From Crocinitomicaceae bacterium (GTDB taxonomy: Bacteria; Bacteroidota; Bacteroidia; Flavobacteriales_D; Parvicellaceae): a stretch of DNA of 54,873 nucleotides. Of this stretch, positions 19,543 through 38,694 are shown one piece after another. Below the pieces are notes generated by a model, which searched no databases, was not told the DNA's origin, and saw nothing but the letters and a program-made list of their open reading frames with translations. The stretch covers positions 1 through 54,873 of the forward strand of contig PAZE01000007.1 of assembly GCA_002716065.1 (NCBI GenBank), written 5' to 3'. Within the stretch, counting starts at the first letter, position 1. Every line of letters starts with the position of its first letter. The translations under genes and the position numbers were made by a program.

Positions 19543-19576
19543 TGAACTATATTAAAATTTAACAAAATTAGGGCAG

Positions 19577-19607
19577 CAAATATAGAATTTCATCTCATTA
19601 TAAACAA
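19577..19607 (-). promoter_or_regulatory. secDF promoter (Bacteroidota type)
   Basis: On the minus strand TTG (19607-19605) and TATATTTG (19584-19577) are spaced by 20 bp and match the -33 and TAnnTTTG -7 elements. The leader would be about 28 bases. It is a housekeeping-type promoter, unlike the divergent plus-strand site at 19656-19681. Confidence 0.7.
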
Positions 19608-19655
19608 CATTATTTCAAGTTGTTATAATTTATTAGTGGATTGCTCTATTTTGGA

Positions 19656-19681
19656 GCAACTTAAACACTCTATTAGCCGTC
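19656..19681 (+). promoter_or_regulatory. Candidate ECF-sigma promoter, site A (FG-GAP operon)
   Basis: GCAACTT (19656-19662) and CGTC (19678-19681) are separated by 15 bp, with TATAAA following. This is the AAC / CGTC layout of ECF sigma promoters. It is one of three such sites in the window (with 23831-23855 and 38280-38305), all intergenic and on the strand of the gene they precede. The start codon of the FG-GAP gene is 38 bp beyond the CGTC. No direct test exists here; the call rests on shared sequence, spacing and position. Confidence 0.6.
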
Positions 19682-19718
19682 TATAAATAGTTAAGCATAA
19701 AAATTAAAAAACCACATT

Positions 19719-21932
19719 TTGAAACAACTCACTTTAATATTTGCTTTAATAACAGCTTTAATCAATTATGGCCAAAATTCTTTTTTCAAAAGAGTAGACA
19801 CTATAAGTGTTGTAAATTTTGGAGATACCTTAACAGCTCCTTGGGTTGGCGGGATAAATGCAGCTCAATTTTCTACAATTGATTTAAACAATGACAACCA
19901 GGAAGATCTTTTTATTTTTGACAGAACAGGAAATAAAATAATTACGTATATAAATTCCAATGGAAAATACATCTACAATTCTGCTTATGAAAACTTGTTT
20001 CCTGATTTAAACTATTGGGTTCTTCTAAGAGATTTTGACAATGATGGTAAAAAAGATATTTTTTCCTATGTATCTGGGGGAATTGGTGTCTGGAAAAATA
20101 AAAGTAGCGCTAACGAACTATCTTTTGAAAAAATAACGGACCCTTATTTAACTTCCTATCAGTTTGGAAATATGACAAACTTATTTGTTTCTAAGGTAGA
20201 CATTCCAGACATTAATGATATTGACGGAGACGGAGATTTGGATGTGTTAACTTTTGGTGTTTTAGGAAATAGATTGGAATATCATCAAAATTTTTCTGTT
20301 GAAAATGGGTATTCCAGTGATAGTCTTATTTATGAAATTAAAAATGCTTGCTGGGGACATTTTCTAGAAACGGGGTTTAACACCAACACTTGTATTCTAT
20401 TTGATACATGTGGGAACAACGTTGCCAACCCTCACTTACCAATTATTAATGCTGAAAAACATACAGAACCTGCTTCAAAACATGCTGGGTCCACTGTGTT
20501 ATCAATTGATTTAAACAACGACAATGTGAAAGACTTAATACTTGGAGATGTATCATTTAGTAATGTTGTCGCTTTATACAATGACAATTCTGGTGTAAAT
20601 GCCAACACTTCATTTATTAGTCAAGATACTGTATTCCCATCCAACACCGTACCTGTTGACATACATGTATACCCAGGAGCGTTTTACGAGGACATAAATC
20701 TTGATGGAACAAAAGATTTAATTGTAAGCCCTAATAGCGACAACGAAACAGAAAATAAAGAAAGCGTTTGGTATTATCAAAACTTTGGAACCAACACCCT
20801 TCCTTCTTTCAATTTGATAGCTAAAAACGAATTTCAAAATGAAATGATTGAGGTTGGGAAATCCTCTCACCCTGTCTTCTTTGATTACAACAACGATGGT
20901 TTAATGGATTTTTTTGTTGCCAACTTTGGTGAATTTAACCTTAACACTTCCAACAATTATATAAGCTCCATTTCACTTTATGAAAATACGGGTACCATAA
21001 TTGCTCCAAAATTTGATTTAATAACTAATGATTTTCAAAATATTTCATCTTTAAATATTGAAAAAGGGCTTTATCCGTGTTTTGCTGATTTAGATAACGA
21101 TGGAGACAACGACATGCTGTTAGGAGATTTTTCTGGACACCTTCATTATTTTGAAAACACCTCATCCTCACTTTCTTCTTTTAATCTTATATTAATGAAT
21201 CCTCAACTACAAGACAATGACGGCAATGTTATTGACATAGGTGATGCAGCAATTCCAGAATTGTATGATTTAGATAATGATGGCGATTTAGATCTTATTG
21301 TTGGAGAAGCACTTGGCACTATAAATTATTTTGAAAATATTGGCACTACATCTTCACCCCTATTTAGATTAATTTCTGAAGAATTTGGCAATATTGATGT
21401 TAAAGAATGGTGGAACTTTTATGGATTTAGCATACCTAAATTTTTTAGAAACCAACAAAATGAATTGGAATTGTATGTTGGTGCTGAAAGTGGATACATA
21501 TTAAAATATGGAAATATTGAAAACAATCTCAGTGGAACATTTAATCTTTTAGATACTCTTCTAGAAACTAATATTGGACCTAATGCATCTCCCTCATTTT
21601 CATATTTAAATGGAGATACTATTGTTGATCTAATTTTAGGTAATGAAAGAGGAGGTGTATGCCTTTTTCTGGGAACAACAGAAAATCCACTTTCAATTTC
21701 AGCTTTTAACGCACCAACAAAACTAAAATTGTTCCCAAACCCTTGCTCATCAGTATTATCGATTCCATTATCCAACTCTTTTAACTACAGCATATACAAC
21801 ACAATTGGACAAAAAGTGCTGTCTGGAAATGGCAATGGTGAAATTAATGTATCTCAATTAAAAAGAGGCATTTACATTATCCAAATTGAAGATAATTTTA
21901 ATAACTTTATTTCTAGGTTTATTAAAAATTAA
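19719..21932 (+). CDS. Secreted FG-GAP/VCBS repeat protein with T9SS type A sorting domain
   Basis: A 737-residue surface or secreted protein. The start is TTG at 19719, because no ATG precedes the signal peptide (KQLTLIFALITALINYGQ). It holds at least seven FG-GAP/VCBS strands with Ca2+-binding Asp-rich loops, for example DFDNDGKKDIF, DIDGDGDLDVLTFG, DLDNDGDNDMLLGD and DLDNDGDLDLIVGE, which suggest an integrin-like beta propeller. The C-terminal 70 residues (from LKLFPNPCSS, near 668) are a T9SS type A sorting domain with KRGIYIIQI. It is first in an operon with a lipoprotein gene 3 bp on and a DCC-family gene after that. A candidate ECF promoter precedes it. The ligand or function is unknown. 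Confidence 0.88.
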   Translation: MKQLTLIFALITALINYGQNSFFKRVDTISVVNFGDTLTAPWVGGINAAQFSTIDLNNDNQEDLFIFDRTGNKIITYINSNGKYIYNSAYENLFPDLNYWVLLRDFDNDGKKDIFSYVSGGIGVWKNKSSANELSFEKITDPYLTSYQFGNMTNLFVSKVDIPDINDIDGDGDLDVLTFGVLGNRLEYHQNFSVENGYSSDSLIYEIKNACWGHFLETGFNTNTCILFDTCGNNVANPHLPIINAEKHTEPASKHAGSTVLSIDLNNDNVKDLILGDVSFSNVVALYNDNSGVNANTSFISQDTVFPSNTVPVDIHVYPGAFYEDINLDGTKDLIVSPNSDNETENKESVWYYQNFGTNTLPSFNLIAKNEFQNEMIEVGKSSHPVFFDYNNDGLMDFFVANFGEFNLNTSNNYISSISLYENTGTIIAPKFDLITNDFQNISSLNIEKGLYPCFADLDNDGDNDMLLGDFSGHLHYFENTSSSLSSFNLILMNPQLQDNDGNVIDIGDAAIPELYDLDNDGDLDLIVGEALGTINYFENIGTTSSPLFRLISEEFGNIDVKEWWNFYGFSIPKFFRNQQNELELYVGAESGYILKYGNIENNLSGTFNLLDTLLETNIGPNASPSFSYLNGDTIVDLILGNERGGVCLFLGTTENPLSISAFNAPTKLKLFPNPCSSVLSIPLSNSFNYSIYNTIGQKVLSGNGNGEINVSQLKRGIYIIQIEDNFNNFISRFIKN

Positions 21933-21935
21933 CTC

Positions 21936-22331
21936 ATGTTTTCTCCCCTCAAAGGATTTCTTTTAGTTTGTCTTGGAATATTTATTATATCGTGCTCTAA
22001 AACTGCTGGCCCCAATGGAAAAGCGACAGTACATGTTCATCTAATTAAAACGCTAAACAATAACTTTGCTATGAATCTTGCCAATACTAATGTTATGGTT
22101 AATTACAATAGCTCTTCCTTCCCAGGAACTACAGCTTCAGGAGACAACAATGTTCAAACCAATGAAAACGGGTTAGCTGAATTCAATAATCTCAAAAGAG
22201 GAGATTATTATTTTTTTGTAATCTCATCTATCAATGATACTTTATTTTCTGGTGGACAACACGTTTGTATTGAAAGCAGAAAAGGAGAACAACACATTGT
22301 AATTGATATTGGTGAAGAAAATCCGTATTAA
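21936..22331 (+). CDS. Small lipoprotein, function unknown
   Basis: A 131-residue protein. Residues 1-20 are a lipoprotein signal with lipobox IISC (FLLVCLGIFIISC), so Cys20 is the likely lipid site. The mature part is beta-rich and has a carboxypeptidase-regulatory-like pattern (ATVHVHLIKTL, NENGLAEFNNLKRGDYYFFV), as seen in many Bacteroidota surface lipoproteins. It starts 3 bp after the FG-GAP gene, which suggests that the two proteins work at the same surface. Its stop overlaps the first base of the DCC-family gene. No closer family is recognised. Confidence 0.75.
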   Translation: MFSPLKGFLLVCLGIFIISCSKTAGPNGKATVHVHLIKTLNNNFAMNLANTNVMVNYNSSSFPGTTASGDNNVQTNENGLAEFNNLKRGDYYFFVISSINDTLFSGGQHVCIESRKGEQHIVIDIGEENPY

Positions 22332-22732
22332 TCGACAAAACATCTAACATATTAATTTTTGATGATGATTGTATTTTTTGCAATCAAGCAGTAAAATTTA
22401 TTTTAGAAAACGATCGATCAAAATCCATTTATTTCACTGGATCAAGTTCAAAAAAAGCTATTGAATTGATTAACAAGTACCAACTTAAAGGGGTGCCTAA
22501 TGAAACAATCATATTAATATCAAATAATAAGGTTTATCTTTTTTCAGATGCTGTCCTAAAAACAGCTCAACTAATGAAGGGACTATTTCCATTATTAATT
22601 CTAACAAAAATTATTCCCTTGTTTATTCGTAACTTTATATATAAAGCTATTGCCAAAAGACGAAAAAGACTATTGAAAAACAATTGTGATATTTCTAAAG
22701 AATATTCCAATCACCCTAGAATTATAACCTAA
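22331..22732 (+). CDS. DCC-family (DUF393) thiol-disulfide protein with a non-standard start
   Basis: The first ATG/GTG/TTG in this frame gives only 88 residues from 22466, but homologous sequence extends upstream. From 22331 the frame reads IDKTSNILIFDDDCIFCNQAVKF in two pieces: NILIFDDDC then IFCNQAVKF. It thus includes the DxxCxxC motif that names the DCC family. An in-frame TGA at 22313 and the absence of any ATG, GTG or TTG between it and the motif leave ATC (22331, overlapping the TAA of the lipoprotein gene by one base), ATA or ATT as start. From ATC the length is 133 residues, right for the family. A sequencing error in the start codon is the alternative. A bidirectional terminator follows. 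Confidence 0.75.
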   Translation: MDKTSNILIFDDDCIFCNQAVKFILENDRSKSIYFTGSSSKKAIELINKYQLKGVPNETIILISNNKVYLFSDAVLKTAQLMKGLFPLLILTKIIPLFIRNFIYKAIAKRRKRLLKNNCDISKEYSNHPRIIT

Positions 22733-22754
22733 AAAGGAGCCGGGGCTCCTTTTT
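22731..22754. terminator. Bidirectional terminator between the DCC gene and mdh
   Basis: AAAAAGGAGC (22731-22740) and GCTCCTTTTT (22745-22754) form a 10-bp stem with a 4-base loop. Flanking A and T runs serve both strands. It stands between convergent genes and overlaps the stop codon of the DCC gene. Confidence 0.9.
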
Positions 22755-22775
22755 TAACAAAAAACAGAAACTTTT

Positions 22776-23705
22776 TTAAAGAGAACTTAAAGCGTCATTC
22801 ATTTTGCTAACCGCCTGAGCACTTTTAGCAAACAACTCTTTTTCATTTTCGTTAAGCTGGACATCAATAATGTTTTCCCATCCATTTTTCCCCACTACAA
22901 CTGGCACACCTATACATATATCAGACTCTCCATATTCCCCCTCTAATAATACAGAGCAAGGAATAATTCTCTTTTGATCATTTAAAATACTATCTACTAA
23001 ATAAGAAACAGCAGCTCCAGGAGCATACCATGCTGAAGTTCCCAGCATTCCAGTTAATGTTTTCCCCCCAACCATAGTAGCTGCAGCAACATCATTTAAT
23101 TTATCAGCAGATAAAAAATCACTAACAGGCAAACCATTATAAGTTGCCAATCTAGTTAAAGGAATCATTGTAGTATCTCCATGTCCACCAATTACCATAC
23201 CATGAATATCACTTGAAGGCTTTTGTAAAGCAATAGATAAATACGTCTTAAATCTTGCACTATCTAATGCACCTCCCATTCCAATAATTCTATTTTTTGG
23301 TAATCCACTTTCCTTAAGAGCTAGGTAAGTCATTGTATCCATTGGATTTGAAACAATAACAATTATTGCATTTGGAGAGTGTTGTAAAATATTTTCAGTT
23401 ACTGATTTTACTATTCCTGCATTAACACCAATCAACTCTTCTCTAGTCATTCCAGGTTTTCTTGGGACTCCACTTGTAATAACAACCACGTCACTATTTG
23501 CAGTCTTCTTATAGTCATTAGTACTACCGATAATTTTCGTGTTAAACCCTAAAAGAGTAGAAGTTTGTGTCATATCTAGAGCTTTACCTTCAGCATAATT
23601 TTCTCTGATATCCAATAAAACCACTTCACTTGCAATTCTTTTGTATGCAATAGCATCAGCACAGGTAGATCCAACGTTACCTGCTCCTACAATAGTTACT
23701 TTCAT
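22776..23705 (-). CDS. mdh: Malate dehydrogenase
   Basis: The open frame extends to 23885, but the protein begins with MKVTIVGAGNVGST at 23705, so the 60-residue extension is rejected. The resulting 309 residues are the normal length of the LDH-like MDH type. It converts malate to oxaloacetate with NAD+ in the TCA cycle. Motifs are the NAD site GAGNVGS, substrate Arg residues in GVPRKPGMTREEL, VSNPMDTMTYLAL, and the catalytic His in GGHGDTTMIP. It is the only minus-strand gene inside the surface-protein island. A TACTTTCG sequence (23731-23724) is a near match to a -7 element. Confidence 0.96.
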   Translation of the reverse strand: MKVTIVGAGNVGSTCADAIAYKRIASEVVLLDIRENYAEGKALDMTQTSTLLGFNTKIIGSTNDYKKTANSDVVVITSGVPRKPGMTREELIGVNAGIVKSVTENILQHSPNAIIVIVSNPMDTMTYLALKESGLPKNRIIGMGGALDSARFKTYLSIALQKPSSDIHGMVIGGHGDTTMIPLTRLATYNGLPVSDFLSADKLNDVAAATMVGGKTLTGMLGTSAWYAPGAAVSYLVDSILNDQKRIIPCSVLLEGEYGESDICIGVPVVVGKNGWENIIDVQLNENEKELFAKSAQAVSKMNDALSSL

Positions 23706-23830
23706 GTTTTTTATTTTTTTTTGCGAAAGTAAAAATTCAAATTCTTCTATCCTATTTTTAGGTTTTAAATATTCTAATATTATTTTAGTACGAGAGTTTG
23801 AGCTTAAAGAAAATTTTTCTTTAGGACTCG

Positions 23831-23855
23831 GCAACTTATCAATAGTGCTAACGTC
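23831..23855 (+). promoter_or_regulatory. Candidate ECF-sigma promoter, site B (autoregulatory)
   Basis: GCAACTT (23831-23837) and CGTC (23852-23855) are separated by 14 bp; a G at 23830 extends the -35 to GGCAACTT. The ATG of the ECF sigma gene follows 15 bp after the CGTC, giving a leader of only about 9 bases. Self-transcription is the usual behaviour of ECF sigma factors. The site shares its elements with sites 19656-19681 and 38280-38305. Confidence 0.65.
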
Positions 23856-23870
23856 ATCTATACAACAACA

Positions 23871-24446
23871 ATGAAACTGTCTCAAAGAGAGCTTGAAAAA
23901 ATAGTTAAAAAATGTAAGAGGCGAGATCGTTTAAGTCAACGTAAAATATATGAACTGTTTTATGTTAAAATGATGTCAGTTTGTTACAGGTACGCTAGAG
24001 ATGAGGATGAAGCTAAAGACATTTTGCAAGATGGTTTTATAAAAGTTTTTGAAAAAATTGACAACTATAGCTTTGAAGGCTCGTTTGAAGGCTGGATGAG
24101 AAGAATTATTGTGAATACCGCTATTGACACATACCGTAAAAGAAAAAGGGAATTATCTCAAAACGAAGAACTCTACAAAAACACCTACAAGGAGTTTAAC
24201 GAATATGATGATACTGATTATAATCCTTATGAATCTATTTCCATAAAGGATGTTGTTGGTGCAATGCAACTTTTGTCTCCTGCTTATCGGGCCGTTTTCA
24301 ACCTATACATAATGGAAGGCATGACACATAAAGAAATTGCAGCTTCGTTGGAAATAAGTGAAGGCACTTCAAAATCGAATTTGGCCAAAGCAAAGGCCAA
24401 CGTTAAAAAAATGTTAAGTGAAAAGTTAAATAAGAGTTATGAATAA
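23871..24446 (+). CDS. ECF-type RNA polymerase sigma factor
   Basis: A 191-residue sigma-70 family protein with only regions 2 and 4. Region 2 (about 20-95) has YRYARDEDEAKDILQDGFIK and FEGWMRRIIVNTAIDTYRKR. Region 4 (about 130-185) has LSPAYRAVFNLYIMEGMTH and EIAASLEISEGTSKSNLAKA, a helix-turn-helix for the -35 element. It resembles the ECF group common in Bacteroidota, which includes SigP, the sigma factor of T9SS genes in P. gingivalis; orthology is not claimed. Its last eight bases overlap the next gene, which encodes a membrane protein. A matching AAC/CGTC promoter lies just upstream, suggesting self-activation. Confidence 0.95.
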   Translation: MKLSQRELEKIVKKCKRRDRLSQRKIYELFYVKMMSVCYRYARDEDEAKDILQDGFIKVFEKIDNYSFEGSFEGWMRRIIVNTAIDTYRKRKRELSQNEELYKNTYKEFNEYDDTDYNPYESISIKDVVGAMQLLSPAYRAVFNLYIMEGMTHKEIAASLEISEGTSKSNLAKAKANVKKMLSEKLNKSYE

Positions 24447-25746
24447 GCTAGATCCATTTGAGGAATTAATCAGCAAAAAACTACAAAATCACAAAGTGGA
24501 TTTTAGCTACGATTCATGGGATGCTATTGAAAAAAAGCTCCCCAAAGCAAAAAACACCACTGCTTTTGTTGTTGCTGTAGGAATTATTTCTATTGCAGCT
24601 GTTTCATTTTTTATTTTAAAATACAACACCCCTAATTCAAAAGCTATTATTTCCTCTGAAAAGACCATTAGCAAAAAACCACATTCTACAGAATCAACCA
24701 ACCTAAAAACTATTGACTTAGCACCAGAAAAACCTGAGCAACAAAACCACTCAATTAGTGCAATAGAAAATTCTACTGACCCCAAAAATGAAAAAGGAGA
24801 GTCTAAAAAAATAAAACCAATTACTCCCTCTTCTAACATAAAAAATACGGAGCAACCAATTAAACATTATAATGAAAATAATAAGGTGCTTAAAGTTGAA
24901 AAAATAGAAGCTAAAAAACCGGTTTCTTTAGCCACTAACGACATACAGCAAGCTCAGCAAGACAATTCTTTACCTTTAGCAGAATTTACTGTAAATAAAA
25001 CTACAGTTTGCTGTTATGAAACTATAAGTTTCTTTACTGATAAAAACAGAAATATTTCCTACTATTGGGATTTTGATGATGGAAATTCTAGCATTGTTTC
25101 TTCTCCTACTCACCAATTTAATGAACCAGGAAATTATATTATTACTTTAAAAGCTAGTAATAAAGACAACCCCAATGAATTTGCTATTTCTCAGCCTATA
25201 TCTATTACTGTATATCCTACACCTACTGCAAACTTTAATTATGAAAAAATTGTAGAAGATGGGTTGCCATGTATTTCTTTTACAAGTTCAGCTTCTTCAA
25301 CTAACACTGTGAAATGGAATTTTGGTGACGGTAGTAGTTCTTCATTATTTGATGTTATACATCATTACAACAAAAAGGGAATTTATCAAGTTTCTTTTGA
25401 ACAAACCAATTCCTACAATTGTATTGCCTCAAACACTCAAGCTGTTGAAATCCTTGAAGACTTTAATTTATTTGCACCAAATTCATTCACACCAGATGGA
25501 GACGGAATAAACGATACATTTATTCCTGAATCGTTAAAGTTAATGAATGTTGACTTTACAATGAATATCTATAATAAACAAGGTAAGCTTATTTTCAAAA
25601 CCAAAAACGTTAACCAACCTTGGAATGGAATCAACCAAAATAACGGTCAGAAGTGTAGCCAAGGATCTTATATTTGGTTTGTTCAATTGGTTAATAAAAA
25701 TGGTGAAACTGAGCAGTATAACGGGGCTCTTCTTTTACTTAATTAA
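24439..25746 (+). CDS. Sigma-linked membrane protein with PKD domains and T9SS type B C-terminal domain
   Basis: A 435-residue protein. Residues 1-38 are charged and lack a signal peptide (DPFEELISKKLQNHKVDFSY, then DSWDAIEKKLPK), a pattern seen in the cytoplasmic part of ECF-linked Bacteroidota membrane proteins. One membrane helix follows (about 40-60, FVVAVGIISIAAVSFFIL). A Lys/Pro/Ser-rich linker covers about 61-175. Two PKD domains follow (about 178-258 with YYWDFDDGNSS, and 262-345 with VKWNFGDGSSS). The end is a gliding-motility-associated type B CTD (from FAPNSFTPDGDGINDTF to residue 435). It overlaps the sigma gene by 8 bp, so I infer a regulator of that sigma factor. A signal-anchored CTD protein is unusual. 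An alternative is that residues 1-60 act as a long signal peptide. Confidence 0.85.
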   Translation: MNKLDPFEELISKKLQNHKVDFSYDSWDAIEKKLPKAKNTTAFVVAVGIISIAAVSFFILKYNTPNSKAIISSEKTISKKPHSTESTNLKTIDLAPEKPEQQNHSISAIENSTDPKNEKGESKKIKPITPSSNIKNTEQPIKHYNENNKVLKVEKIEAKKPVSLATNDIQQAQQDNSLPLAEFTVNKTTVCCYETISFFTDKNRNISYYWDFDDGNSSIVSSPTHQFNEPGNYIITLKASNKDNPNEFAISQPISITVYPTPTANFNYEKIVEDGLPCISFTSSASSTNTVKWNFGDGSSSSLFDVIHHYNKKGIYQVSFEQTNSYNCIASNTQAVEILEDFNLFAPNSFTPDGDGINDTFIPESLKLMNVDFTMNIYNKQGKLIFKTKNVNQPWNGINQNNGQKCSQGSYIWFVQLVNKNGETEQYNGALLLLN

Positions 25747-25837
25747 ACAACGCTATAAAGTTTTTGGCAGTTGCTTTAATTTTCTTATTTTTAATTAATA
25801 GTTATGAATTACTTTACTGCGAAAAACTATTTATAAA

Positions 25838-26317
25838 ATGCTCCCCTACAGACTATCTTTCTCGTTGATTTTATTTTTATTTACTCCTATTCTTTTTTTA
25901 TCTCAAGTTGATTTAAGTACAATAAAATCCAATACATCAACTAAAACAAATTGGAAAAAATACACAAAACAAGAAGGTATTTTAATCGAGTATTCCTTTC
26001 AGCAAGATAACCCAACAAGATCCTATAAAGGAGAATATTTACTTTTAAGAATAACCAATTCGAGTAATCTAAATCGTCATATATCCTGGGATTTCTCTGC
26101 TATATACAATAGTGAACGTTGTCTAAATTGTGATTCTAACAATGAAGAACTTCATTTTGAAAATACTGTAAAAGCTAATTCCTCTTTAACTGGCAACATT
26201 AACAACAATAAAAAAGGTCCTTTGGTTATCTTCCATAAATTCACAGATGAAAATTACAAAGGTAAAAGAGCTTTAGAGTGGCAATCTTTTGAATTGAAAA
26301 AATTGCACATTAAATAA
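25838..26317 (+). CDS. Secreted protein of unknown function
   Basis: A 159-residue protein with a signal peptide (residues 1-23, LSFSLILFLFTPILFLSQ) and a beta-rich mature part. It has two close cysteines (CLNCDSNNEE) that may form a disulfide or bind metal. No family is recognised. It ends 10 bp before the giant adhesin gene and so is probably co-transcribed with it. The 91 bp upstream contains no hairpin and no clear promoter of either type seen elsewhere in the window, so transcription may come from the sigma-factor operon. Confidence 0.65.
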   Translation: MLPYRLSFSLILFLFTPILFLSQVDLSTIKSNTSTKTNWKKYTKQEGILIEYSFQQDNPTRSYKGEYLLLRITNSSNLNRHISWDFSAIYNSERCLNCDSNNEELHFENTVKANSSLTGNINNNKKGPLVIFHKFTDENYKGKRALEWQSFELKKLHIK

Positions 26318-26327
26318 CCCTTTCAAT

Positions 26328-29300: not shown

Positions 29301-32300
29301 GCTGGGACATTCAACGTAACCATTTCCGACAACAACGGTTGTACTCAAACCTTAACTACAACCATTAACGAACCAACATTACTAACCAATTCTATTTCAA
29401 GCAATGACGGCTCATGTAATAATAGTTGTGATGGTACTGCAACTGTTAATACAAGTGGAGGAACCCCAGGGTATTCCTATCAATGGAATGATCCAGCTTT
29501 TCAAACTACAGCAACTGCAACAAATCTTTGTGCTGGATCTTACTCTGTGATTGTCACTGACAATAACGGTTGTATTCAAAATTCCTCTATTACAATTAAT
29601 GAACCATCTGCAATAAATCTTACCACATCAAGTATAAATTCAAATTGCGGAAATAATGATGGCCAAGTATCTGTAATCGCTAGTGGAGGAACTGCAGGAT
29701 ATACTTACCTTTGGGACGACCCTAATACATCAACATCAGCTACCGTAAACAATCTAATTGCTGGAACTTACATTGTTACTGTAACAGATGCTAATGGATG
29801 TACAGAAATTGCCACAGCTACTATTAGTGACAATGGATCGGGGACTGCATCAATATCAATTAACAATAACATAAGTTGTAATTCCCTATGTAATGGAAGT
29901 GCCTCAGCAACAATTGTGGGGGGGGCTGGTCCATTTACTTACTTTTGGAACAATGGAGAAACGACTTCTACAGCATCGAGTTTATGTGCTGGGACAATTT
30001 CAGTAGATATTACAGATGCTAACGGTTGTGTTGTAACTGTAAGTGATTTAATTACTGAGCCCAATATACTTTCCTCAGCAATAACCTCATTCGATGATGT
30101 AACATGTAACAGCTTATGCGATGCTGTGGCAACTGTAAATGTTTCTGGTGGAACTCTCGGATACACTTATTTATGGAATGATCCTTCGGCACAAACTACA
30201 GCATCTGCCAATAATCTTTGTGCAGGAAATTATACAGTAGACATAACAGATGCTAATGGATGTACTACTTCGGCATCGGTAACCATTAACGAGCCAACTG
30301 CAATAAACACCTCAATTATTGGAACTGATGTATTGTGCAACAATGCTTGTGATGGAAGTGCAGATCTAACCGTTTCAGGTGGAACTCCAGGATATACTTA
30401 CCTTTGGGATGACCCAAACTCAACTAGTTCTGAAGACATTTCAGCTTTATGTGCTGGAAATTATTCTGTTACCATAACAGATGCTAATGGGTGTACTGGA
30501 ACAGAAAACATTACCATTAATCAACCTACTGCACTTGTTCTTACACCATCATCAGTTAACTCAAATTGTGGAAATAGTGATGGGCAAGTAAGTGTTCAGG
30601 TAAATGGAGGAACTCCAAATTATTCTTATTTATGGAATGATCCTTCAGCTTCTACCACTTCTGCAGTAAATAATCTTTTAGCTGGAAATTATTCTGTTAT
30701 CGTTACCGACAATAATGGCTGTACTCAAAACACCTCTATAACTATTTCTGATAACAGCCCCGCAAGTATATCCCATACTCAAGTAGATATTTTATGTAAT
30801 GGTGGAAATAATGGAGCTATTGATGTTACATTGAATGGTGGGAATTCTCCATTTACCTACAACTGGATTGGTCCGTCTGGATTTACATCTAATGCTCAAG
30901 ACCTTACAGGACTCACGGCCGGCACTTATGATTTAACATGTATAGATGCTGTTAATTGTATTGTAAATTTAAGTGTTACAATATCCGAACCTTCACCAAT
31001 TATTTTATCAACCAATGGTATAAATGCAACTTGCTTTTTAGGTAATGATGGAGAAGTTTCAGTTTCTGCTTCTGGTGGAATGCCTGGTTTTTCATACAAT
31101 TGGTATAATAATGTCACTTTAACAACCAATGTAGGAATTGGCACCAACATAACCAATTTAACTGCTGGAACATATTATGTAAACGTTACTGACGCGAATG
31201 GTTGTACTGTAAATGATAACATTACCATTTCAGAGCCAAACGAAATCATTGTAACCACTTCATCTATTGATGCAACATGTGGTCAATCAAATGGATTAAT
31301 AAGTGTTTCTGGGACTTCAGGAGGAAGCGGGATATATGTTTCTGAAATTTGGCAAGATGCAAACGGAAATACAATTACTAACACTACCAGTGTTAGTGCT
31401 GGATCGTATTATGTAACTGTCACGGATGACAATGGATGTACTGGAAATGGTATTGCCAACGTTTCTGATTTATCTGGGCCTATTGGTCAAATAGATGGTT
31501 ATGGAGATGCCAGTTGTTATGGTTCATGTGATGGCTTTGCCAATATTGTTGTCGGTGGCGGAACCCCTAACTATACCTATGTATGGCAACCACAACCTGG
31601 TAGTGGTCAGGGAACAACTTCGGCAACAAATCTATGTGCTGGAATTTACACTATAGATATCACCGATGCCAATGGATGTGCTACAAGTGTAATTGTGAAC
31701 ATTAATGAACCTGCTCAACTTAGCCTTACACTAGCTTCCAGTTCAGATGCTTCTGGATCTGGTATATGTGATGGACAAGCAACAATTTCAACTTCTGGAG
31801 GATCACCTAACTATTCTTATTTTTGGTTTGATGATTGTAATTTAACTTTACCAAATACATCCATTAACGGAACTTCAGTAAATAATTTATGTGCTGGCAC
31901 TTACGGGGTTCTTGTTACAGACAACAACAATTGTCCCGATACACTTTGTATAACAATAAATGAACCCAATCCAATTATTATTTCAGTAACTGGAAATGAT
32001 GTTTTATGCAAAAATGACTGTAATGGTTCTGCAACGGCATCTGTAATTGGGGGAGTTGCTCCATTCAATTACCAATGGTATTCTACAGCAACTAACCAAT
32101 CAATTAATCAAAATTCAATTACTGCTTCAAACTTATGTTCAGGAACCTACTATGTTGTTGTTACAGATGCTAATGGTGTTTCTATGACAAGTTCTAATTT
32201 TACTGTAAATGAACCTCCTATTTTAGCTGCCAATACTAGTGTAATTTCCAACTATAATGGTCAAGATATATCCTGTTTTGGTGCTTGTGATGGAGCTGTC

Positions 32301-35300
32301 GAAGTTATCCCTATTGGGGGTACCTCACCCTACACCTATCAATGGAGTGTTAATGCCAATTCCCAAAATACACCAATTGCCATAAACTTGTGTGCCGGTA
32401 CTTATGATGTTACTGTAACTGATGCAAATGGATGTATTTCCAATGTAAATATTTCTTTAACCCAACCTATTGACCTCACCAATTCAAATACTTCATCTGA
32501 TGTATCATGTAATGGATTTTGTGATGGAACAATTTCTTCAAATTCCTTAGGGGGCACAACTCCCTACTCTTATTTATGGAACAATTCTAATTTTAGCACC
32601 ACATCATCAATTTCCAACTTGTGTCCAGGAACTTACAGCGTTACTATTACGGATGCTAATGGTTGTTCAACTATTGAAACATCAACAATAACAGAACCAA
32701 ATCAATTGGTAATTTCAGCAACAAGTACAGGCTCTAACTGTAACCAAAATGATGGAAGTGCAACAGTTAGTATAGTTTTTGGAACTCCACCTTACAGCTT
32801 TCAATGGGATAATAATGCTGGAGCTCAAACAACCGCAACGGCAACTAATTTGTTTTCTGGCTGCTATGATGTTATTATAAATGAAGGAAATGGTTGTATA
32901 GACACTGTAAATGTTTGTGTAACAGATCTAGGTGCACCTACGGTTTCTATTTTAACACAGACTGATGTTTCTTGCTATAATTCGTGTGATGGATTTGCTC
33001 AAATTCAAGTTTTTGGAGGGGCTCCACCTGTTCAATACAATTGGTACGATCAAAACAATCAACCTATAAATCAAACTACAGCAAGTGCATTTAATTTATG
33101 TGCAGGCACCTATATTGGAGAAATGACCGATTCAAATGGTTGTCAAGCATCAGTAAATGTAATTATCAATGAGCCCTTAGAGCTAAATGGAATAATTTCA
33201 GCTAATTCGTCCGTGACTTGTTTTGGTGATTGCGATGGAACAGTAACGGTAACTGCATCATCTGGCACAGCTCCTTACAACTATCAATGGAACGATCCAA
33301 ATTTTCAAACTACAGCTAATGCTAGCAACTTGTGTCCAGGAAATTATTCTGTAACTATTACTGACAACAACAACTGTTCATTTACTATTCCCACTACAAT
33401 AGGTGAACCAGATCAAATACAATTAACTGTAAATTCAACAGATGCATACTGTAATACTAATTCCGGAAGTGCTAATGTTATTTTAAATAATGGCGGTGTT
33501 AATCCAATTACATATTTATGGACACCTTCTGGTCAAACAACAAGCTCAGCAACAAATTTAAATCCTGGTAATTATGCCTTAACTTTAACAGATGCTAACG
33601 GATGTACAGCAAATAGCTCTACAACAGTAGGGAATATTCCTCCAGGAACAGCTTCAATTTCTAATTTAACCAATACATTGTGTCCAGGATCTTGTGATGG
33701 AACAGCTACTGTTTCAATGAGTGGCACAGCAACTGCTCCATTTATATACGAATGGTTTACCAATAGTGGATTAAGCATTGGTCAGGATTCTATTACAGCT
33801 ATTAATTTATGTGCTGGATACTATTATTGTGTAGTTACAGATGCTAATGGGTGTATCTCTTTCACTAACCAGTTTGATATTTCTGAGCCGGCACCATTAT
33901 CATTAGTTGTTGACACAGATTCCTCCAATTGTTATGCATCCTGTAATGGACAAGCAGTTGCTACTGTAAGTGGTGGAACAGGTTCCTACCAATATCAATG
34001 GGATGATCCGTTATTACAAATTACCCAAACTGCATTCAATTTATGTGCTGGAACATACACAATATTAGCTACTGACAATAATGGTTGTACAATTTCTTCG
34101 CAAGTAAATATTGAACAACCCAACTCATTAATTCTAGATTCAACAGTTATTAATGCAAATTGTGGTCTCTCTAATGGTGAAGGGTGTGTCAACGTAATTG
34201 GTGGGATTGCTCCGTACAACTATTTATGGCCAAATAACGCAACTACTAGTTGCTTAAATGGATTGGCAGCAGGATCATACTTAGTAGAAGTTACTGATGC
34301 AAACAATTGCTCACAAAACATAGTAGTTGAAATCTCTGACATAGACGGACCCATTGCATCGATAATAAGTGTTACAAATACTAGCTGTTATGGAAGCTGT
34401 GATGGAAGCGCCACTGTTGATATGATTGGTGGAAGCGGAACATTTTTTACTGTACAGTGGGATTCTAGTGCCTTTAATCAAACAACACCCAGTGCATCCA
34501 ACCTTTGCGCTGGGACATATACAGTAAACATTACAGATGATATTGGTTGTAGCTCATCAGCAGCAGTTACCATTAACCAACCTGATACTATTCAATACAT
34601 TAGAAATAAAACAAATCCTACATGTTTTGGATACTGTGATGGTCAAATGTGGGTAAGTCTTGTTGGGGGAACTCCTCCATACTCATTTGATTGGAGAGAT
34701 AACGCAAATAATTCTTTAGGGGTAAACAACGATTCTATTTCTGGAATATGTTCGGGAAATTACATAGTAATAATAACAGATGCCAATGGCTGTGTAGTAA
34801 TAGCTGATTTTGTTTTAACAGACCCACCACAAGTGTCTGCAAGTATAACCACCAACTCTGTTTCCTGTTATAATTTATGTGATGCTTCTGCAACTGTAAC
34901 ACCATCAACAGGATTTGGTCCATTCACTTATGTTTGGGGGAGCAATACTGGCTCTCAAACAACTCAAACAGCCACTGGTTTGTGTGCAGGAAATTACACA
35001 GTTACAGTAACAGATTCTGATGGTTGTACTAACACAGCTCAAACAACAATAACTGAACCTACCCAATTGACTTGTTCAATTACTAATTTCAATAACCTCT
35101 CATGTAATAATTCATGTGATGGTTTTGCTCAAGTTGATGCACTTGGAGGAACGCCAGGGTATACCTATATATGGAATAATAACGGTGGAATAAATCAATC
35201 CGCATCAGGTCTTTGCGCTGGAAATTATACTGTAACAGTTATAGATGCCAACAATTGTACGAGCACTTCAACTGTAACTATTTCTGAACCTAATCCACTT

Positions 35301-38273
35301 GTTGCTGTTTCCAGCTCAATAGATTTGTTGTGCTTCAACATTTGTACTGGAGAGGCTAACGTTAATGTTTCAGGTGGAACTTTGCCATATAGCTATCAGT
35401 GGGACGACCCAAATTTCACTACTGCAAATAACGTAGCTAATCTATGTGCTGGAACATATTCATGTGTAATAACAGACTCCAATAATTGCTCTTTTACTGA
35501 AACTATTCAAATCACTCAACCAACTGAACTTTCCATGTCAGTTTCAATAACAGATGCCAATTGTGGACAGAGCAACGGGCAGATATGTATGAGTCCAACG
35601 GGAGGAACAGCACCTTTTACTTATCAGTGGAATGACCCTTTTAATCAAACATCTGCATGTGCCACAAACCTATTATCTAACTGCTATAATGGAGAAATAT
35701 TAGACGCTAATGGTTGTTTAATAGATAGTGTAATTTGTGTTAATGATATTTCTGGTCCTAACGTATCTTTAGTAAACTCAACAGATGTAACCTGTTATGG
35801 CTATCAGAATGGAGTAATTCAAATTAATGTAGTTGGTGGAACTGGAGGTAATTCAATTTCTTGGTTTGATAATGCTGGTAATATTCTTTCAAGTGGAAAC
35901 AATCAAACTATTTTATCAACGCTTAATGGCGGTTGCTATTCAATTCAAGCAGTTGATAATGCTGGTTGCATATCTTCTATAACCACGTGCATTAACGAAC
36001 CCAACTTATTAACCTCATCTATAGCAAATTTCTCTGAAGTAAGCTGCTATCAGTTTTGTGATGGAAATGCCACTGCAATAGCAACTGGAGGGGTTATTTC
36101 ATCTTCATACAACTATTCATGGAATGATCCTAATGCACAAAACACACCAACTGCTAATGGGTTATGCGCAGGAAACTATTCAGTTACCATTACAGATGAT
36201 AATAATTGTTCTTCTACTTCTAATATAGTTATTGGTTCACCCACTCAACTTTCTACAAATGTGAGCTCTTTTGCTGATGCATTATGTTATAACTCCTGCG
36301 ATGGCATAATAGAAGTGTCATCATCAGGTGGAACTTCTCCATATAACTATACTTGGAATAACGGTACAACAAGCTCCATAAATACCAATTTATGTGATGG
36401 CAATTATACTGTTATTGTTGTGGACGCCAATGGATGCTTAGATTCTGTTTCACAGTTAATTAATGAGCCAACACCTTTACAAGCAACCATCAATACCATT
36501 AATTCTACTTGTGGAGATTGCAATGGTCAAGCTACCGTTCAAGTTTCGGGTGGAACAAGTGGTTATTCTTACAATTGGTTTAATTTGGGAAGTTCGCCTA
36601 TCCCAAATTCAAATATTGGACTATGTCCTGGAAGTTTTCAAGTAGAAGTGATTGACCTCAACAATTGTACAGCTATTTTCACAGATACAATTATTGATGA
36701 TAGCAGTCCAACAATTGATAATATTGGTTTTACAAGTCCACTTTGCAATGGACTAAGTAACGGAAGTGCTTTTGTGGAAGTTTCAGGTGGGACATTGCCC
36801 TATACTTATCTTTGGGATGATCCCGCTCAGCAACAGGTTGATAGTGCTGTTGCTTTGCAAGCTGGCATCTACTGTATAAATGTAACCGATGCAAATGGAT
36901 GTATAACTACAAATTGTGTTAACGTAACTGAACCCAATCCATTAAATGGCGTTCCCGATCTTCCAGATACAATATGTTATGGAGATTCTACCCAAATATG
37001 GGCGAGTGGACAAGGCGGGACTTTCCCTTATACAATAAATTGGTCCAATACATCTCTAAGTGGATTTGGCCCCATAACAGTTGCTCCTTCAAGCACTACA
37101 GATTATTGCTTTACCGTTACTGATGATAACGGTTGTATATCTCCTACTTCATGTGTTACAATAAGTGTTACACCACCGCTTTCTTTATCTGTTACACCAA
37201 GCATGAATATTTGTAGTGGTGGTAATGTAGATGTACAAGCAATTGCTTCTGGTGGAGACACTTCAAATTACAATTATAATTTTGCTTGGACGGATGAAAA
37301 CAATTTTTACATCCCTTCAGTTGAAAATGGAGACACATCCACCATTAACATAGGACCAAATACGGTGAGTTGGTTTTATATTGTTTTATCTGATGGATGT
37401 TCTATTGATGCAATTGATTCAACAGAAATTGGCATAAACCCCAACCCTCAAGCTCTAATAATTGCTACTGACTCTATAAATTGCGCCCCACTAAACACCC
37501 AGTTTATTGTTAATTCAGATATAGGAGATTATTTTGATTTTGATATTGACTGTGATGGAATTAGTGATTATTCCGGAACAAGTAATAATTTAACTTACAC
37601 TTTTGCAAATAGTGGTCTATTTGATGTTTGCGTTAGAGTTACCAATTCATCTACTGGTTGTTTTACAGATCTATCTATTCCTAATATGATTCAAGTTTTT
37701 GATAATCCAAATGCCTATTTTACTACAAACACCAATCAATCAACAATACTAAATCCATCTATTGAAATAACTGATGGGTCAATCGGTGGATATAACTACA
37801 GTTGGGATTTTGGTGACAATTCTTCAATTTTCGGAACAATTAATGATGTAATTAATGACAGCACTACGACAGGCTTAATGACCAATCTAACTCACCTATA
37901 CGGTGACACAGGAATTTTCACCATAACACTCATCATTTCTGATAACAACGGTTGTACTGATAGTTACCAACAAACCATTAGCATTGAAGGAGACTATATC
38001 GTATTTACTCCATCTGCATTTACACCAAATGGTGATGGCAGAAATGATATCTTTATTCCTGAAGGAATTGGTATTAGCAGAGATCATTACGAATTTTATG
38101 TCTTTAATCGCTGGGGAGAACTTATTTTCGAATCCTACAACCCTTCAGTTGGTTGGGATGGAACCTATAAAGGTAAGCTCGTTAAATTAGACGCTTATGT
38201 ATGGCTATTAAGAACATGGGATAACAACCAACATCCTCACGAATACATGGGTCATGTTACTGTAGTTCGATAA
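26328..38273 (+). CDS. Giant SprB-like T9SS adhesin with about 37 SprB repeats
   Basis: A 3981-residue protein. In order: signal peptide (1-20, ending SASFTQ); Cys/Gly-rich beta domain with DSFGDGWNG (24-118); two copies of DGIQNxxETGxDCGG (120-160); an MAM-like segment (about 335-495, CFYLDFATQG to HWGIDNVTI); SprB repeat 1 (553-626); PKD (628-714, YNWDFGDGTG); SprB repeats 2-37 (about 715-3536); Ig/PKD-like modules (3537-3890, YSWDFGDNSS); type B CTD (3893-3981, FTPSAFTPNGDGRNDIF). SprB of Flavobacterium johnsoniae is a 6497-residue mobile adhesin moved by the gliding motor and exported by T9SS with SprF. Size, repeats and a nearby sprF-like gene support the same class. Whether this cell glides cannot be seen from the window. 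Confidence 0.93.
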   Translation: MKKLVSIVLFVWVFCSASFTQCCTFTLSMFDSFGDGWNGGSLTVNVAGTNFGPYSASGSGSQSTFTACPGDLITLTYSSGAWEGENTYSLLDPNGAVLFSDGPNPTTGTVFNTNAFCPPNCFDGIQNGNETGIDCGGSCPPCHCSDGIQNNGETGVDCGGPCPNSCPVPCNVSASYSILSGAGGACGNTVNYNQTITISNPNLGYSNDFIFTSVPTTALSAGTLTINAMGDLNSANEIWTILSELGATITTLGASGSQCSSVLTITIPLSIADLNAWAADGTIIFQGVDLSSSNVNPNLCGNEYMEMTLSYDGCTPELSCNGGTVQLTAIGQGQYSFALNNDFDLGFAGTGWNASPAATFTNPCDPSVDGGTYMWMGDMTAAPRNLETNPLDVSCGGEICFYLDFATQGNASPCEGPDLPSEGVYLQFSTDGGATWTTINYFDPTAGNYTSWAQYCFPIPPAAQTNNTIFSWWQGGSSGTIYDHWGIDNVTITSLVNCDPYTYDWSHIPGTNNDSTTVVNVTQTSTYTVTYTNGTDTCSTSITVTVPDGPIIAGNVITNETCPGDCDGSASSSVTNSAGTPPYSYLWSNNATTTNVNNLCPGDYIITVTDDNNCTHSDTITINPGVVLTPTISPVAAQCLNSNLFSFSSANSTISSGSISSYNWDFGDGTGSSTSANPTYSYANAGSYVVTLTISDGNCTESTSINVTIWENPSASAIPSDETCFNTCDGAIDLTVIGSGGYTYSWNNGAGNQEDPNGLCPNTYDVLITDINGCQTTASAIINGPTLLSTSISGTDVSCNNSCDGSSTVNASGGSPGYTYLWNDPNAQTTATASNLCAGSYIVSVIDNNGCNSSANITINEPSILSASINSSDVSCNGLCDGSATVTANGGTPGYTYLWDDPNTQTTATASNLCAGVFTVTITDNNGCTQTSSVTINEPSILSASIVGSDVSCFNSCDGSSTVTASGGSPGYSYLWNDPNAQTTATATNLCAGTFNVTISDNNGCTQTLTTTINEPTLLTNSISSNDGSCNNSCDGTATVNTSGGTPGYSYQWNDPAFQTTATATNLCAGSYSVIVTDNNGCIQNSSITINEPSAINLTTSSINSNCGNNDGQVSVIASGGTAGYTYLWDDPNTSTSATVNNLIAGTYIVTVTDANGCTEIATATISDNGSGTASISINNNISCNSLCNGSASATIVGGAGPFTYFWNNGETTSTASSLCAGTISVDITDANGCVVTVSDLITEPNILSSAITSFDDVTCNSLCDAVATVNVSGGTLGYTYLWNDPSAQTTASANNLCAGNYTVDITDANGCTTSASVTINEPTAINTSIIGTDVLCNNACDGSADLTVSGGTPGYTYLWDDPNSTSSEDISALCAGNYSVTITDANGCTGTENITINQPTALVLTPSSVNSNCGNSDGQVSVQVNGGTPNYSYLWNDPSASTTSAVNNLLAGNYSVIVTDNNGCTQNTSITISDNSPASISHTQVDILCNGGNNGAIDVTLNGGNSPFTYNWIGPSGFTSNAQDLTGLTAGTYDLTCIDAVNCIVNLSVTISEPSPIILSTNGINATCFLGNDGEVSVSASGGMPGFSYNWYNNVTLTTNVGIGTNITNLTAGTYYVNVTDANGCTVNDNITISEPNEIIVTTSSIDATCGQSNGLISVSGTSGGSGIYVSEIWQDANGNTITNTTSVSAGSYYVTVTDDNGCTGNGIANVSDLSGPIGQIDGYGDASCYGSCDGFANIVVGGGTPNYTYVWQPQPGSGQGTTSATNLCAGIYTIDITDANGCATSVIVNINEPAQLSLTLASSSDASGSGICDGQATISTSGGSPNYSYFWFDDCNLTLPNTSINGTSVNNLCAGTYGVLVTDNNNCPDTLCITINEPNPIIISVTGNDVLCKNDCNGSATASVIGGVAPFNYQWYSTATNQSINQNSITASNLCSGTYYVVVTDANGVSMTSSNFTVNEPPILAANTSVISNYNGQDISCFGACDGAVEVIPIGGTSPYTYQWSVNANSQNTPIAINLCAGTYDVTVTDANGCISNVNISLTQPIDLTNSNTSSDVSCNGFCDGTISSNSLGGTTPYSYLWNNSNFSTTSSISNLCPGTYSVTITDANGCSTIETSTITEPNQLVISATSTGSNCNQNDGSATVSIVFGTPPYSFQWDNNAGAQTTATATNLFSGCYDVIINEGNGCIDTVNVCVTDLGAPTVSILTQTDVSCYNSCDGFAQIQVFGGAPPVQYNWYDQNNQPINQTTASAFNLCAGTYIGEMTDSNGCQASVNVIINEPLELNGIISANSSVTCFGDCDGTVTVTASSGTAPYNYQWNDPNFQTTANASNLCPGNYSVTITDNNNCSFTIPTTIGEPDQIQLTVNSTDAYCNTNSGSANVILNNGGVNPITYLWTPSGQTTSSATNLNPGNYALTLTDANGCTANSSTTVGNIPPGTASISNLTNTLCPGSCDGTATVSMSGTATAPFIYEWFTNSGLSIGQDSITAINLCAGYYYCVVTDANGCISFTNQFDISEPAPLSLVVDTDSSNCYASCNGQAVATVSGGTGSYQYQWDDPLLQITQTAFNLCAGTYTILATDNNGCTISSQVNIEQPNSLILDSTVINANCGLSNGEGCVNVIGGIAPYNYLWPNNATTSCLNGLAAGSYLVEVTDANNCSQNIVVEISDIDGPIASIISVTNTSCYGSCDGSATVDMIGGSGTFFTVQWDSSAFNQTTPSASNLCAGTYTVNITDDIGCSSSAAVTINQPDTIQYIRNKTNPTCFGYCDGQMWVSLVGGTPPYSFDWRDNANNSLGVNNDSISGICSGNYIVIITDANGCVVIADFVLTDPPQVSASITTNSVSCYNLCDASATVTPSTGFGPFTYVWGSNTGSQTTQTATGLCAGNYTVTVTDSDGCTNTAQTTITEPTQLTCSITNFNNLSCNNSCDGFAQVDALGGTPGYTYIWNNNGGINQSASGLCAGNYTVTVIDANNCTSTSTVTISEPNPLVAVSSSIDLLCFNICTGEANVNVSGGTLPYSYQWDDPNFTTANNVANLCAGTYSCVITDSNNCSFTETIQITQPTELSMSVSITDANCGQSNGQICMSPTGGTAPFTYQWNDPFNQTSACATNLLSNCYNGEILDANGCLIDSVICVNDISGPNVSLVNSTDVTCYGYQNGVIQINVVGGTGGNSISWFDNAGNILSSGNNQTILSTLNGGCYSIQAVDNAGCISSITTCINEPNLLTSSIANFSEVSCYQFCDGNATAIATGGVISSSYNYSWNDPNAQNTPTANGLCAGNYSVTITDDNNCSSTSNIVIGSPTQLSTNVSSFADALCYNSCDGIIEVSSSGGTSPYNYTWNNGTTSSINTNLCDGNYTVIVVDANGCLDSVSQLINEPTPLQATINTINSTCGDCNGQATVQVSGGTSGYSYNWFNLGSSPIPNSNIGLCPGSFQVEVIDLNNCTAIFTDTIIDDSSPTIDNIGFTSPLCNGLSNGSAFVEVSGGTLPYTYLWDDPAQQQVDSAVALQAGIYCINVTDANGCITTNCVNVTEPNPLNGVPDLPDTICYGDSTQIWASGQGGTFPYTINWSNTSLSGFGPITVAPSSTTDYCFTVTDDNGCISPTSCVTISVTPPLSLSVTPSMNICSGGNVDVQAIASGGDTSNYNYNFAWTDENNFYIPSVENGDTSTINIGPNTVSWFYIVLSDGCSIDAIDSTEIGINPNPQALIIATDSINCAPLNTQFIVNSDIGDYFDFDIDCDGISDYSGTSNNLTYTFANSGLFDVCVRVTNSSTGCFTDLSIPNMIQVFDNPNAYFTTNTNQSTILNPSIEITDGSIGGYNYSWDFGDNSSIFGTINDVINDSTTTGLMTNLTHLYGDTGIFTITLIISDNNGCTDSYQQTISIEGDYIVFTPSAFTPNGDGRNDIFIPEGIGISRDHYEFYVFNRWGELIFESYNPSVGWDGTYKGKLVKLDAYVWLLRTWDNNQHPHEYMGHVTVVR
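27985..36935 (+). repeat. Tandem SprB-repeat coding array, about 37 units of about 240 bp
   Basis: Hand alignment gives about 37 units of 71-85 codons. The core pattern is SCxxxCDG, then SGGTPGYTYLW, NLCAG, VTVTDANGC and INEP. A PKD module interrupts between units 1 and 2. Neighbouring units 3 and 4 share a 36-base identical stretch (28809-28844 and 29040-29075, offset 231 bp), a sign of recent duplication or gene conversion. Most other units are well diverged at the DNA level. Some units end in ISDxxGP in place of INEP, roughly every third to sixth unit. Confidence 0.9.
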
Positions 38274-38279
38274 ATTAAG

Positions 38280-38305
38280 GCAACTTTACACATCTTAAGT
38301 GCGTC
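38280..38305 (+). promoter_or_regulatory. Candidate ECF-sigma promoter, site C (CTD protein/sprF operon)
   Basis: GCAACTT (38280-38286) and CGTC (38302-38305) are separated by 15 bp, with TAAT following; G at 38279 gives GGCAACTT as in site B. It begins 7 bp after the stop of the giant adhesin gene and is 53 bp before the next ATG. Together with sites A and B it defines the proposed regulon. Confidence 0.6.
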
Positions 38306-38358: not shown

Positions 38359-38694
38359 ATGAGAAACCTAACCCTTATAATTACTATTGTTCTACTTTCA
38401 ATTGACCTAACTTCTCAAGAGGATAGAAAGTTTTGTCAATTTATTATGACTAATGTTGAAAATAGAGCTAAAACCTTGGAAATTGATGCTTTTGTCAGAA
38501 AACAAGAAGGCGTATTTATTTCAAGAGCTGATTTGAATTCAAAAAAATATTTACTTATTTACAACAGTAATTCATCCATTGATATTGATTTAATTAAAAA
38601 TTGGATGATGGAACTAAAAGTCGAATTAAAATGTATTCGTGAAGGTATTTATGGGGTTGATAAAATTTTAGATCAAAAACCAGATTGTGAATAA
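38359..38694 (+). CDS. Small secreted protein of unknown function
   Basis: A 111-residue protein with a signal peptide (residues 1-19, LTLIITIVLLSIDLTSQ) and a short alpha/beta mature part of about 90 residues with three cysteines (FCQF, LKCIRE, DCE). No family is recognised. It stands between the giant adhesin and the second CTD protein. Its stop overlaps the GTG start of the latter by 8 bp (38687-38694), a strong sign of one operon with coupled translation. A role in assembly of the neighbouring surface proteins is possible but only by context. Confidence 0.65.
   Translation: MRNLTLIITIVLLSIDLTSQEDRKFCQFIMTNVENRAKTLEIDAFVRKQEGVFISRADLNSKKYLLIYNSNSSIDIDLIKNWMMELKVELKCIREGIYGVDKILDQKPDCE

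Follow-up and report, generated by a model that had tools for sequence, protein, structure and literature searches.

A candidate ECF sigma regulon of T9SS surface proteins with a putative anti-sigma factor that carries a T9SS sorting domain

The window analysed here, a stretch of 54,873 nucleotides from the draft genome of a Crocinitomicaceae bacterium (2.33 Mb, 56 contigs, 84.9% complete), holds three copies of an ECF-type promoter sequence. The explanation we consider quite likely is that the ECF sigma factor encoded behind one of them drives its own operon and two T9SS surface-protein operons, and that it is held by an anti-sigma factor ending in a T9SS sorting domain. Sequence comparison shows the sites and how far they are conserved, what class of genes lies downstream and in what order the domains of the second gene product stand; from there we infer that the state of the T9SS controls release of the sigma factor. 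The most testable new claim is that a T9SS sorting domain has been built into an anti-sigma factor.

Three promoter-like sites and their genes

The sequence-only reading had placed GCAACTT-N14/15-CGTC at three positions in the window, and a search of both strands returned exactly these three matches, at the same coordinates and on the same strands. All are intergenic, each points at the next gene, and the distance from CGTC to the start codon is 37, 15 and 53 nt for sites 1, 2 and 3, respectively. The accompanying hand estimate was well under 0.1 chance matches; dinucleotide shuffles (n=100) gave a mean of 0.01 and never three. The names proposed for the genes behind the sites (FG-GAP cargo, ECF sigma and CTD-protein/sprF) are upheld by Pfam and NCBIfam, and the features are as follows.

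19656-19681, + strand: site 1, GCAACTT-N15-CGTC, promoter-like, 5' of the FG-GAP operon
19719-21932, + strand: 737-aa protein (TTG start) of FG-GAP repeats ending in a type-A T9SS sorting domain (Pfam FG-GAP_3 2.7e-23, Por_Secre_tail 1.2e-11)
21936-22331, + strand: small lipoprotein-like protein in the FG-GAP transcription unit (ORF, conserved neighbour)
22776-23705, - strand: malate dehydrogenase, divergent neighbour outside the regulon (Pfam/NCBIfam; synteny kept)
23831-23855, + strand: site 2, GCAACTT-N14-CGTC, promoter-like, putatively autoregulatory, 5' of the sigma gene
23871-24446, + strand: ECF sigma factor, 191 aa (Sigma70_r2, Sigma70_r4_2, TIGR02937)
24439-25746, + strand: putative anti-sigma factor, 435 aa (PKD_4 5.4e-23, CHU_C 1.2e-17, TIGR04131 over cut-off)
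25838-26317, + strand: secreted-looking protein, 159 aa (orthologue in G010)
26328-38273, + strand: SprB-repeat protein with CHU_C sorting domain, 3981 aa (27 SprB repeats, CHU_C)
38280-38305, + strand: site 3, GCAACTT-N15-CGTC, promoter-like, 5' of the CTD-protein/SprF operon
38359-38694, + strand: secreted-looking protein, 111 aa
38687-40510, + strand: CHU_C/type-B sorting-domain protein, 607 aa, GTG start (CHU_C 4.2e-13, TIGR04131)
40425-41576, + strand: PorP/SprF-family protein (PF11751 1.4e-28, TIGR03519); homologues suggest a start near 40488

The sigma protein consists of sigma regions 2 and 4 only (PF04542 and PF08281, with TIGR02937 over its cut-off). Behind site 2 the unit runs past the sigma gene into that of the putative anti-sigma factor, and the operon probably continues via the gene for the 159-aa protein into that for the 3981-aa SprB-repeat protein. 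An ORF on the minus strand (22776-23885) that overlaps site 2 was set aside as a spurious TTG extension of malate dehydrogenase, which most likely starts at the ATG at 23705, since its homologues are 309-310 aa long. Several features of the neighborhood are recorded here for their own sake: malate dehydrogenase lies divergent to the sigma gene in the majority of the family genomes, and SecDF adjoins the FG-GAP operon (window 16372-23705), both being cases of conserved synteny with no obvious functional link, while three tRNA genes, one of them cut by the window edge, lie on the minus strand at 1-335.

The pattern search was extended to the whole draft genome, as had been proposed, and within this 84.9% complete assembly it returned only the three exact sites and no fourth, the reversed control pattern giving 2 matches. 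Looser patterns in the same genome (CGTT, other third bases, and various spacings of GCAACY) matched about as often as the controls and brought in no further members; sites 1 and 3 themselves carry a spacer one base longer than usual. Around sites 1 and 2, a scan for sigma-70 promoters stayed at the level of shuffled sequence. A link to por/gld core genes, for which the sequence-only reading had proposed a test, did not emerge, as no exact site lies 5' of any of them in the draft genome. Given that only three exact sites occur there, the regulon looks, in terms of sequence matches, like a small and local subset of the organism's surface proteins: 25 CHU_C matches over the cut-off are found in the genome, and three of them belong to the locus in the window.

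Conservation and reach of the sites in relatives

Matches to the sigma protein, some of them paralogues, occur in 33 of the 39 family genomes, and the orthologues have (A/G)GCAAC(C/T) followed by CGT(C/T) directly 5' of the sigma gene at an approximately constant distance from its start. This was quantified with 77 orthologues from named genomes (Flavobacteriales MAGs, Crocinitomix, Brumimicrobium, Fluviicola and Vicingus, a collection which partly overlaps the family set): GCAAC-N15-17-CGT lies about 40 nt upstream of the sigma gene in 68 of the 77, with positions from -70 to +10 of the start accepted, and the corresponding rate in shuffled sequence is 0.16%. The spacing between GCAAC and CGT is 16 in 61 of these 68 sites. 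CGT is followed by C or T; GCAAC is followed by C in 93% of the orthologue sites and by T in the genus of the window. Such conservation argues for the autoregulation that had been proposed for the sigma gene. Conservation of all three sites had been put forward as a check, and it is strong for site 2 only, the other two being kept in some relatives and not everywhere. Site 1 is retained 5' of the FG-GAP orthologue in G010 and G011, is reduced to a GCAAT near-match in genus g9 and is absent in genus g3; site 3 is retained 5' of the 111-aa orthologues in five genomes of three genera (G010, G001, G002, G003 and G025) and has been lost in G004.

A search of the 39 family genomes with GGCAACY-N14/15-CGTC gave 74 matches where the reversed control gave 39, and in genus g8 the two counts were 34 and 7. 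We examined 69 distinct sites with the right spacing and tallied their classes by hand; many are orthologous, and the counts are hence not independent. The largest class comprises 26 sites 5' of an operon with a sorting-domain protein as its first or second gene product, followed by 11 sites 5' of the sigma gene and 11 in coding DNA; a further 9 precede secreted proteins cut off by a contig end, 6 a conserved RNA candidate of about 95 nt, 3 other large secreted proteins and 1 a PorP/SprF-like gene, and 2 are at contig ends. Pfam searches on 18 of the downstream proteins found CHU_C in 14 and Por_Secre_tail in 2. When the spacing was shifted by five bases, 26 matches were obtained, 25 of them coding and none 5' of cargo. 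Right-spaced sites outside coding DNA thus stand almost exclusively before the sigma gene, T9SS cargo or the small RNA, and the surface-protein regulon that had been suggested from the window is, as far as sequence comparison can take it, well supported. The targets in the family are cargo, with no por/gld core genes found among the regulon members. The strict pattern revealed no wider regulon in Crocinitomix, Brumimicrobium and some others, and in the GC-rich genome G048 its matches were at chance level.

Small secreted-looking proteins of approximately 110-170 aa recur directly 5' of giant sorting-domain genes in the regulon (window 25838-26317 and 38359-38694; loci L101, L105 and L352), and it is possible that they are dedicated partners of the giant proteins.

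The RNA candidate was recognized at six sites with no matching ORF nearby, each of which is followed by the conserved stretch with the invariant core TTTTATATTTTCCTTG. Its two hairpins, one of them 5' and the other terminator-like, enclose the invariant core UUUUAUAUUUUCCUUG. Searching with the core gave ten loci in genera g2, g7 and g8 (L114 559-690, L121 537-670, L375 1423-1557, L378 1431-1552 and six more), in each of which the same ECF-type promoter lies about 35-55 nt 5' of the core. Five copies had folding z-scores of -3.6 to -6.1, each folding into two hairpins, and the five loci searched against Rfam gave no match. RNAalifold found no consensus pairs, a result probably due to terminator stems that fail to line up in the alignment. 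No targets emerged from a search with exact 13-nt complements of the core, and no copy of the core occurs in the genome of the window.

The protein encoded behind the sigma gene

The ECF sigma factor with its own promoter, as described by the sequence-only reading, stands, but that reading had missed the sorting-domain gene behind it. The sigma gene shares its last 8 nt with this gene, whose product consists of two N-terminal helices, a membrane helix, a disordered tether of about 110 residues, a pair of PKD domains and a type-B T9SS sorting domain, the last with a TIGR04131 score of 39.7 (cut-off 35) and CHU_C over its cut-off. Roughly 36 charged residues, as judged by eye, precede the membrane helix. 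In an AlphaFold model the N-terminus forms two short helices, followed by a transmembrane helix at 48-61 and by no structure at 62-175; the PKD and C-terminal domains are modelled confidently, whereas confidence is low at 37-175 and in the N-terminal part. The gene order, the overlap and this topology are the reasons why we infer that the gene probably encodes an anti-sigma factor. Pfam found no known anti-sigma domain in the N-terminus, and a fold search of the PDB returned PKD and Ig-like proteins with no anti-sigma match.

The arrangement recurs well beyond the window. In 69 of 80 named loci the ORF after the sigma gene ends in a sorting domain, as judged by an HMM of our own trained on eight CHU_C domains from the organism's genome, and these ORFs nearly always have an N-terminal tryptophan motif and a transmembrane segment. 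Across 17 orthologues the mean pairwise identity is highest in the sorting domain (0.54), followed by the N-terminus (0.40), the PKD domains (0.35 and 0.30) and the tether (0.16), which is charged and 103-125 residues long. The protein carries the C-terminal type-B sorting domain that marks type-B cargo, and its N-terminus looks like a signal anchor and not like the cleavable signal peptide of such cargo. Full-text searches, with subscription papers and supplements outside their reach, turned up no description of a T9SS sorting domain within an anti-sigma factor.

Explanation, alternatives and known systems

In the explanation we prefer, the ECF sigma factor would read (A/G)GCAAC(C/T)-N14-16-CGT(C/T) promoters, and its targets in its own genome would be the sigma operon and two further T9SS surface-protein operons. 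The N-terminal helices of the putative anti-sigma factor would hold the sigma at the inner membrane, the disordered tether would cross the periplasm, and the sorting domain would reach the T9SS at the outer membrane, where its engagement, blockage or processing would release the sigma. Production of surface cargo would then follow the condition of the T9SS, and either direction of the signal would fit. As the putative anti-sigma factor ends in the export tag of the surface proteins, the cell may sense its own secretion machine. A broader formulation, which we hold only tentatively and somewhat short of even confidence, would make this a widespread device of the Flavobacteriales, with an anti-sigma factor that is itself a T9SS substrate on a tether. 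The T9SS at the outer membrane would catch its sorting domain while its other end keeps hold of the cytoplasmic sigma; the occupancy or function of the T9SS, read mechanically or by cleavage, would adjust transcription of surface cargo, and a sigma-dependent small RNA would join in some lineages.

It is also conceivable that the regulon is real and that the second protein acts as an ordinary anti-sigma factor sensing the periplasm, with a CHU_C domain that is merely structural or ligand-binding and never meets the T9SS. The signal anchor, unlike the start of ordinary cargo, would be consistent with this, as would C-termini that read ..GALLLLN or ..GAILLLK where GHVTLIR/K is common in cargo. 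However, the sorting domain is conserved above the PKD domains and is so widely kept among the loci, and the regulon members carry a sorting domain of the same type; we therefore regard this alternative as doubtful, if deserving of serious consideration. Further questions concern which sigma factor, if any, reads the sites. The genome contains at least two paralogous ECF genes; a second ECF gene there (G000, contig C18, 58899-59408) is also followed by a gene for a TM-PKD-CHU_C protein, as was likewise noted at L173, and the CGT-box promoters of Flavobacterium psychrophilum may be common to several ECFs (PMC9723704). Some other ECF sigma factor, or more than one, might accordingly read the sites while the adjacent one is incidental, yet the CGT(C/T) site accompanies the orthologue of the window's sigma across genera, and relatives of the nearest paralogue have a different conserved site, TGCAACC-N16-AGTCTA, with 11 of its 15 matches in the family 5' of the paralogue gene. 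A -35 common to both pairs and a -10 peculiar to each speak for assigning the CGTC sites to the window's sigma and leave the involvement of another factor improbable. The view that the three sites arose as chance matches without promoter function would agree with the control-level counts of looser patterns, but sits poorly with an expectation of 0.01 exact matches per window and with sites that are all intergenic, co-directional, 15-53 nt before a gene and conserved in relatives; we consider it very improbable indeed.

Enterobacterial sigmaE and RseA form an autoregulated ECF system with a membrane anti-sigma factor, envelope targets and sigmaE-dependent small RNAs. All of these have putative counterparts here, the small RNA in some relatives only, and no homology is claimed. 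A further parallel is found in F. psychrophilum, where SM6 promoters are ECF-type with a CGT -10 box, and CGT-box promoters drive T9SS components (GldN and PorU), an ECF/anti-sigma operon and the regulatory RNA Rfp11 (PMC9723704). The box, the ECF/anti-sigma operon, the regulatory RNA and the T9SS link are the features that the comparison covers, and they are common to both systems, whereas T9SS component genes are targets there. With the predicted promoter sequence, surface-protein regulons might be traced in dozens of genomes.

In Porphyromonas gingivalis, the PorXY-SigP-PorA system likewise has an ECF sigma factor that upregulates its own gene and is linked to the T9SS, SigP controlling the T9SS machinery genes through PorXY (PMC4800418, PMC7712824); PorA has been presented as the first case of a sorting-domain protein that takes part in regulating T9SS genes, and as confined to Porphyromonas (PMC7712824). 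Both systems thus have a self-upregulating ECF sigma, a T9SS link and a sorting-domain protein in the signal path. SigP, however, targets the machinery, whereas the window's sigma would target cargo genes, no exact site in its draft genome standing before por/gld/spr core genes, and the sorting-domain protein of the window is, unlike PorA, itself the putative anti-sigma factor. Outside Porphyromonas, the way in which cells match the output of T9SS cargo to their capacity for secretion would become directly testable through a single gene that links the T9SS sorting signal with a sigma factor.

The architecture of the putative anti-sigma factor resembles that of the Dma proteins of Bacteroides thetaiotaomicron, dual membrane-spanning anti-sigma factors paired with ECF21 sigma factors (Das), which have an N-terminal sigma-binding part, one transmembrane helix, a long disordered tether and an outer-membrane beta-barrel end (PMC13088901). 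The protein of the window also adjoins an ECF gene and has the N-terminal, predicted cytoplasmic helices, the transmembrane helix and the long disordered tether, a likeness in the order of the parts. Its C-terminal portion, however, is made up of PKD domains and a type-B sorting domain of the T9SS, and because the defining barrel is absent we have not filed it as a Dma. Dma2 has been linked to vesicle production and PUL expression (PMC13088901), whereas the window's protein is linked to T9SS surface proteins. By analogy it may nonetheless work like a Dma, and an anti-sigma factor with a sorting domain would extend the Dma concept to the sensing of secretion.
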